Positions 6,541-37,701 of a stretch of 39,305 nt of DNA are shown in pieces; position 1 is the first letter of the stretch, and each line of letters begins with the position of its first letter. The notes under the pieces were generated by a model. It ran no database searches. It was given only the letters and a program-made list of their open reading frames with translations, and was not told the origin of the DNA. The translations under genes were made by a program, and so were the position numbers. The stretch is from Fimbriimonadaceae bacterium (lineage in GTDB: Bacteria; Armatimonadota; Fimbriimonadia; Fimbriimonadales; Fimbriimonadaceae): positions 1-39,305 of the forward strand of contig JANJUB010000064.1 in NCBI GenBank assembly GCA_024710805.1, read 5' to 3'.

Positions 6541-6618
6541 GAATGTTGAATGTCGGATGTGGCTGGATCCCGGATCCCTAGCGACATCCGACATCCGACA
6601 TCCGACATCGAACATCCC
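6541..6618. repeat. Heptamer-built inverted repeat, copy A
   Basis: The left arm consists of heptamers GAATGTT, GAATGTC and GGATGTG. A central GCTGGATCCCGGATCC block follows. The right arm has the reverse-complement heptamer GACATCC three times, then GACATCG and AACATCC. The two arms can pair over about 20 nt to form a long hairpin. The right arm ends 9 nt before the thioesterase ATG, and no Shine-Dalgarno sequence lies between. Related copies occur at 7161-7217, 13665-13726 and 37637-37701. Confidence 0.8.
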
Positions 6619-7160: not shown

Positions 7161-7217
7161 CGTATGTGGCGTGGGGAATGTGGGATGTGGCTGGAGAACT
7201 GGACGTGGATCACCACG
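7161..7217. repeat. Degenerate heptamer repeat, copy B
   Basis: Directly after the thioesterase stop, GTATGTG, GGAATGTG and GGATGTG are followed by GCTGGAGAACTGG. This is the left arm and central GCTGGA of the family. The usual right arm of GACATCC units is missing, and a small CGTGG/CCACG stem replaces it. It looks like an eroded or half copy. Confidence 0.55.
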
Positions 7218-8020: not shown

Positions 8021-8110
8021 GCACCCCTCCGGGGTGCGGGTTGGAGGCGATCTGTACCCTTGGTCGACCGGAGTCGACCAAGGGCTAAGGTCTACGACCC
8101 CTTCGGGGTC
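8021..8110. repeat. Array of three GC-rich hairpins (CCCC/GGGG family), right flank
   Basis: Three perfect stem-loops follow the orphan gene's stop: GCACCCC-TCC-GGGGTGC (8021-8037), a 12-bp stem CCCTTGGTCGAC-CGGA-GTCGACCAAGGG (8057-8084) and GACCCC-TTC-GGGGTC (8096-8110). The first and last share arms with hairpins at 7347-7363 and 7271-7285, so the gene is bracketed by the same two stems in opposite order. They may also end transcription of either convergent unit, although T-runs are missing. Confidence 0.7.
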
Positions 8111-8157
8111 CAACACTCCAACAAGCCAACACGCAAACACGCTAACAAGCCAACCGG
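8111..8157. repeat. Low-G, CAA-rich repeat tract
   Basis: The strand reads as imperfect repeats of CCAACA/CAAACA units, with AACAAGCCAAC present twice (near 8119 and 8144). It lies between the hairpin array and the atpG stop codon. On the atpG mRNA this would be a G/T-rich 3' tail. No function can be assigned. Confidence 0.5.
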
Positions 8158-13636: not shown

Positions 13637-13664
13637 AACGGAAAGGTACCAGTCGCTGGCTGTA

Positions 13665-13726
13665 GGATGTGGAATGTCGGATGTCGCGGACTCAGCACCA
13701 CATCCGACATTCAACATCCCACATTC
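13665..13726. repeat. Heptamer-built inverted repeat, copy C
   Basis: The left arm GGATGTG, GAATGTC, GGATGTC and right arm CACATCC, GACATTC, AACATCC pair over 20 nt with one mismatch across a 15-nt loop (CGCGGACTCAGCACC). It fills the 98-nt space between the divergent atpZ-like and recG genes and ends 8 nt before the recG ATG. The promoters of both the ATP synthase operon and recG would therefore have to overlap or abut it. Confidence 0.85.
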
Positions 13727-37636: not shown

Positions 37637-37701
37637 GGATGTGGGATTTAGGATGTGGGATGTCGCTGGAGACGACATTCGACATTTGACATTCCGCACT
37701 C
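37637..37701. repeat. Heptamer-built inverted repeat, copy D
   Basis: The left arm reads GGATGTG, GGATTTA, GGATGTG, GGATGTC; the centre is GCTGGAGAC; the right arm reads GACATTC, GACATTT, GACATTC, CGCACTC. It fills the gap between the stops of the convergent DUF5916 and lysS genes. Pairing is imperfect (roughly two thirds of positions), but the heptamer rhythm and GCTGGA centre tie it to copies A and B. Confidence 0.75.

Follow-up and report, generated by a model that had tools for sequence, protein, structure and literature searches.

Dispersed intergenic arrays of a degenerate heptanucleotide in a Fimbriimonadaceae genome: a constant arrangement with an exchangeable word

Introduction

To our knowledge, each account of bacterial heptamer arrays (in Xanthomonas, Nostoc, Calothrix and the Beggiatoaceae) has dealt with a single word and offers no mechanism. 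The closest described kind is the GGGAATC/(GGGANTN) family of Xanthomonas, which combines five conserved with two degenerate positions (Rehm et al. 2015, PMC4692102). Its arrays number ~185, are dispersed mostly between genes, have four units most often and include 70–75 convergent pairs. Of these arrays, 83% are co-located in a sister species, where the single or paired type is usually kept; formation of a G-quadruplex is proposed, and a Calothrix heptanucleotide repeat case is cited (PMC4692102).

The arrays described here occur in a 39,305-nt contig of a Fimbriimonadaceae bacterium (JANJUB010000064.1, assembly GCA_024710805.1), the whole of which is called the window below, and are built of the degenerate word GRATGTN. 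Their arrangement is like that of the Xanthomonas repeats as far as PMC4692102 sets it out (tandem 7-nt units, intergenic location, a mode of four units, convergent pairs), whereas the word differs, convergent pairs dominate here (47 of 66 sites), and replacement of the word at orthologous gaps, which is seen here, is not described in the parts of that source covered. The arrays share this arrangement but not the G-quadruplex type, because none of the 115 arms carries four G3 tracts or can form a three-tetrad quadruplex. As to a match with an already described family, the literature searched did not contain this word, the literal words GAATGTTGAATG and ACATCCGACATCC, among others, returning only unrelated oligonucleotides; an equivalent arrangement is the one in Xanthomonas (PMC4692102).

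Arrays of this kind are on record, though no explanation of them has been given; what is new here is that the pitch, the number of units, the inward direction of the G-rich strand and the position stay constant while the word is free. The original prediction had likened the heptamer rhythm to the cyanobacterial STRR repeats, a likeness that is correct in kind (bacterial heptanucleotide repeats, dispersed in tandem between genes) and does not extend to the word or the arrangement: STRR arrays are direct, consist of other words and are not known to form convergent pairs with a cap. Membership in that class was rejected, the arrays here being inverted pairs of a word different from the STRR words. 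The TAACTGA repeats, which are intergenic direct heptamer arrays in Beggiatoaceae, Cyanobacteria and Bacteroidetes (MacGregor 2015, PMC4679880), also resemble the present arrays in their intergenic location, patchy presence over distant lineages and lack of a known mechanism, but they are direct, lie mostly just upstream of start codons and use another word (PMC4679880), while the arrays here are mostly inverted.

Anatomy of the arrays

Counts for the whole genome of the window (G000; 3.25 Mb, 207 contigs) were obtained by pattern searches, and the anatomy of the sites was taken from the stretches around them; the sister species, G001, was the sole same-genus genome searched.

Inverted arrays had been predicted at four intergenic sites of the window, and three of them have this form. 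At site A (6541–6617), the left arm (6541–6567, + strand) reads GAATGT-T-GAATGT-C-GGATGT-G and is followed by the cap GCTGGA, and the right arm (6584–6617, − strand) carries five reversed units, four of them good and one degenerate; the predicted run of three consecutive GACATCC units in this copy is read directly in the sequence. Site C (13658–13726), located in the divergent gap upstream of recG, consists of a left arm with GGCTGT, GGATGT, GAATGT and GGATGT (13658–13684, + strand) and a right arm with four reversed units (13700–13726, − strand). Site D (37637–37701), in the convergent gap adjoining a class II (D/K/N) tRNA synthetase gene, has a left arm with GGATGT, GGATTT, GGATGT and GGATGT followed by the cap GCTGGA (37637–37670, + strand) and a right arm with three to four reversed units, the outermost being degenerate (37675–37701, − strand). 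The exception is site B, a half-array without a reversed arm (7162–7195, + strand), which reads GTATGT-GCGTGG-GAATGT-GGATGT and then GCTGGA. Two-unit matches with at most two mismatches number 24 in the window against 7.6 ± 2.7 in shuffled versions, and 0 of 100 shuffles reach 24.

Over all sites examined, the unit has the composition G (98%), G/A, A (87%), T (95%), G (97%), T (96%) and N, with C (40%), G (37%), T (16%) and A (6%) at position 7. The number of units varies between copies, as had been noted, but only within a narrow range, with four units in 60 of 115 arms and three in 35. The element GCTGGA, formerly placed in the centre, does occur at the inner edge of the arms; it is a degenerate cap, exact in only 19 of 115 arms, with its leading G present in 92% of them (n = 115). 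The centres between the arms measure 10 to 114 nt. In all 47 two-arm sites, GRATGT precedes ACATYC, so that the G-rich strand runs inward, and the reverse order was found 0 times; the remaining 19 of the 66 sites are one-armed. The unusually long 114-nt centre (L082:2044-2255) holds another repeat of ~33 nt, which is present at several places in both genomes.

A second dispersed family of the genus has octamer units, CCAACANG/TTGGYKTG. Its arrays are either single or convergent and in many cases adjoin those of the heptamer, which the octamer replaces at some orthologous gaps. It is represented in the window by a single arm with six units of CCAACANG (8110–8154, + strand), and elsewhere, for example, at L081:6586-6744, L090:7498-7699 and L059:2938-2974.

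Copy number, placement and distribution

The predicted genome-wide excess was confirmed. In G000, there are 105 exact matches to the tandem pair GRATGTNGRATGT, which is of the GRATGTN type, and none to the reversed control pattern; the pair is present 63 times in G001, 19 times in G013 (a genome of the same family) and 0–4 times in 58 other relatives. The forecast of hundreds of copies per genome was too high, because the 105 matches form only ~45 clusters, that is, sites, and the window is a local concentration of them. A family of heptamers dispersed between genes does exist: all 66 sites in the stretches fetched from G000 and G001 lie between genes, which were called ab initio at 86.5% coding. 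Tandem, convergent and divergent gaps are occupied roughly as such gaps occur, with 12 of the 66 sites (eight in G000 and four in G001) in divergent gaps. The arrays are real and not due to chance.

The GRATGTN hairpin was also found in at least 115 stretches over many phyla, in a scan with a pattern for this word only, which shows spread and not relative abundance. In several genomes the matches run into the hundreds, with next to none for the control, one of the array-rich ones being Oscillochloris ZM17-4 (336 matches); among 149 Acidobacteriota genomes, four reach at least 10 matches, compared with one for the reversed control pattern. The richest genome met was Desulfobacteraceae S24.Bin080, with 926 two-unit matches and very long arrays at L129:6531-6724 and L167:6893-7094. 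In Saprospiraceae MAG_35 (G067), the reversed control itself is enriched (29 matches), possibly owing to another heptamer word.

Pairing, slippage and mobile palindromes

The arms can pair, and the RNA folds of three window sites are good (z −4.9 to −5.5). It could accordingly be proposed that the sites form hairpins, in RNA or as cruciforms, that terminate transcription or stabilise mRNA, and one orthologous gap in Aquirufa, which has a classical bidirectional terminator in some species and heptamer arrays in others, is in line with this proposal. Selection on pairing would be expected to leave its mark on the variable positions, and there the evidence is against it: purine/pyrimidine matching across arms was found in 79 of 142 comparisons (74.4 expected, p 0.26) and spacer matching in 34 of 108 (38.5 expected), and covariation between arms is absent in any register (p 0.70). 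In the orientation of the transcript, the 28 A·C mismatches exceed the 13 G·U wobbles, the opposite of the RNA prediction. The occurrence of arrays in divergent gaps and the one-armed state of nearly a third of the sites also count against this interpretation, which we consider unlikely. The original description of the sites as arranged in hairpins does not hold as an organising principle, because the variable positions of the pairable arms do not covary. An Rfam search of the window gave no match, and intrinsic terminators were rejected as a class in view of the divergent gaps and of the absence of a T run at the window sites. Symmetry of the flanks and of the centre ends was null or marginal.

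The same variable positions bear on the suggestion that the arrays are simple-sequence repeats extended by replication slippage, with the inverted partner produced by template switching. Tandem heptamers are what slippage produces, and long homogeneous arrays do exist elsewhere (L129, L167 and 14 units in L097). Here, neighbouring units are nearly independent, being alike at the R position in 162 of 312 cases (148 expected, p 0.05) and at the spacer in 71 of 197 (65 expected, p 0.20), the number of units is narrow, and the arms are not copies of each other. Moreover, slippage offers no dispersal, without which one word could not have reached dozens of loci. The growth by slippage put forward originally is unsupported because of the near independence of adjacent units and their narrow number, and we regard it as the most improbable of the readings weighed here.

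REP elements lie beside RAYT genes (PMC3116915), and the sites resemble REP, BIME and REPIN elements in being intergenic inverted pairs, but without this adjacency. Mobile palindromes of the REP/REPIN or MITE type, which RAYT or another transposase would mobilise in trans, would be dispersed, intergenic, inverted and limited in copy number, as the sites are, and Y1 transposase-like matches were found in G000 (11), G001 (8) and G013 (9). However, none of the 20 stretches around RAYT-like matches in these three genomes has an array beside the gene, relatives without arrays carry RAYT counts of 6–9, and the array-rich Oscillochloris ZM17-4 has no RAYT; a RAYT-type transposase, suggested as the partner of the repeats, is thus encoded in the genome but flanked by arrays in no case. 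The centres are, in addition, unique to each site. Copying of the whole palindrome is disfavoured because centres do not recur outside orthologous sites, the exceptions being L082, which involves the other repeat, and one weak 20-nt match, and no ectopic copying of centres was found. The mobile-palindrome explanation is therefore judged to be quite unlikely. As classes, MITEs were rejected on this behaviour of the centres, and REP/REPIN-RAYT elements on the lack of repeats flanking a RAYT gene and of compensatory changes between arms; the arrays do not qualify as hairpins of the REP sort. When ORFs within 800 bp of the arrays were clustered over 115 stretches from other organisms, no recurrent mobile-element family emerged as a linked mobiliser.

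Persistence of arrays between sister species

In syntenic stretches, the identity between G000 and G001 is ~87%. The record of G001 (JADZEW01) is labelled Methanoregulaceae archaeon SJ84 and is syntenic with the bacterial genome of the window; it is probably mislabelled, because the neighbours of recG and an EF-G gene of bacterial type are among the genes in synteny.

Most of the gaps compared hold an array in both species. The arrays of L044 and L072 are nearly identical, whereas in other cases (window site A and L070, L034 and L080, L045 and L085) the gap is common but the centre is not. This comparison set is biased, because many G001 stretches were picked for holding arrays. In stretches chosen independently of known arrays, each of the five resolved G000 sites corresponds to a G001 gap occupied by one or the other family, heptamers at two and an octamer array at three. 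The gap of site B, with a heptamer half-array in G000, has an octamer half-array in G001, and altogether four gaps hold the heptamer in one species and the octamer in the other. A check for target-site duplications met no clean empty site within the genus, the orthologous gaps being occupied by another array.

At ten well-aligned sites, core positions 1, 4, 5 and 6 of the unit differ between the species in 12 of 268 comparisons (4.5%), a low value that is partly built in by unit recognition (up to ~twofold) and by alignment and that comes from ten sites. The degenerate positions 2 and 7 differ at the same sites in 16 of 114 comparisons (14%; p 0.002 against the core), and the surrounding bases in 94 of 927 (10%).

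A putative factor reading heptads

The interpretation that we tentatively prefer, while giving it somewhat less than an even chance, is that the sites are genus-specific convergent arrays of recognition sites with a 7-bp pitch for a putative factor that reads heptads. An arm consists of about four direct copies of GRATGTN, with G, A, T, G and T conserved, a purine at position 2 and position 7 free, ending inward in the GCTGGA-like cap, and the arms are mostly set as convergent pairs around a unique centre. What is conserved on this interpretation is the word and the pitch, not base pairing between the arms. The factor would be a cooperative, sequence-specific DNA-binding (or RNA-binding) protein requiring several adjacent heptads, by analogy with omega/ParB. 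The parS heptads of pSM19035, to which omega/ParB binds cooperatively, are unspaced 7-bp units in direct or inverted orientation, at least four of them contiguous being needed for full activity (PMC9499535); they are, however, WATCACW words of plasmid promoters and of a centromere, while the arrays here are GRATGTN words in chromosomal gaps.

This preference is based on the distribution of the word (105 matches against a control of 0, 63 in the sister species and about 0 in most of the family), on the wholly intergenic placement with a four-unit mode and an inward order at every two-arm site, on the independence of the arms at the R and spacer positions in any register, on the slower change of the core than of the degenerate positions together with the arrays in five of five orthologous gaps from independently chosen stretches, and on the need of the omega system for at least four contiguous heptads, direct or inverted (PMC9499535). 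The binder might serve in local gene insulation or in chromosome organisation. Against it, clustering of the ORFs near arrays revealed no gene family linked to them, and a binder of fixed specificity does not explain the different words at the same gap or the octamer replacements.

Turnover of words and a putative writer

Other words are found at orthologous gaps in other genomes. Upstream of recG in G013, that is, in the gap of window site C, a convergent heptamer array has the word GGGTRTT (lag-7 z 22.6), pairs of which number 47 in this genome against 0 for the control and 0–2 in 36 other genomes. In one orthologous gap of Aquirufa (L273–L286), arrays of GAATGTA, TRGACGY, TAGTCRY, CAGTARN or TAGAGAG type, with a dominant period of 7, are found in nine species. 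Five further species have sequence without periodicity there, and in four of them the classical bidirectional intrinsic terminator is present. TRGACGY is counted 171, 148, 58 and 41 times in four Aquirufa species and 0–1 times in twelve others. For CAGTARN, the four highest species counts are 115, 57, 34 and 15, and the twelve other species have 0–7. Related genomes thus have a dispersed word of their own at the same orthologous gaps, which points to an undescribed factor that reads or writes seven-base words. Some process would also have to seed a new word through the genome.

The alternative that these data favour is that the arrays are self-spreading or template-written repeats without host function, a putative enzyme writing the current word of the genome at intergenic sites, the words being replaced whenever the source changes and earlier arrays decaying. 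It would account for words that are species-specific and genome-wide (GGGTRTT in G013; TRGACGY, at its two highest counts, and CAGTARN, at its highest, in Aquirufa), for the patchy presence over many phyla, for other words at the same gap and for the replacement of whole cassettes between sister species, as at window site A and L070. The slower change of the core positions speaks against this alternative, as do the narrow four-unit mode and the fixed inward polarity, which look constrained, and the fact that centres are not copied between sites. Taken as a whole it appears rather unlikely, although nearly as likely as an array of recognition sites, and it explains the change of words better.

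A particular form of writing can be imagined in which the arrays are scars of a putative telomerase-like enzyme that adds about four G-rich heptamers to 3' ends at intergenic breaks, the healed ends then being joined. If this were true, convergent arrays would be expected with the G-rich strand inward and a unique junction as the centre, one-arm arrays would mark places where one end was healed, and each genome would have one word, changing with the template. The writer would fit the inward polarity of all 47 two-arm sites. Among the clusters listed for other words (GGGTRTT, TRGACGY, TAGAGAG and the octamer, with CAGTARN only weakly G-rich), reading by eye places the G-rich word ahead of its complement almost throughout. 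A telomerase-like bacterial enzyme, DRT10, does write short tandem cDNA words from a changeable RNA template (PMC12632851), but it makes defence cDNA, with 9-nt units in its main example, and would be linked to chromosomal arrays only by conjecture. We consider such a writer highly improbable.

The same arrangement with species-specific words is found in many phyla, and close relatives keep the gap and change the word. What is conserved (the 7-nt pitch, about four units, convergent pairs with G inward, and the position) is therefore separable from what is free, namely the word, and the origin and spread of short dispersed repeats can now be tested in Aquirufa, a cultivated genus with many sequenced species. 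In the Aquirufa gaps L280 and L282, GACGC..GCGTC palindromes occur, some of them followed by a T run. Their stem is similar to the TRGACGC unit, and one of the two, heptamer word or terminator stem, may have given rise to the other.
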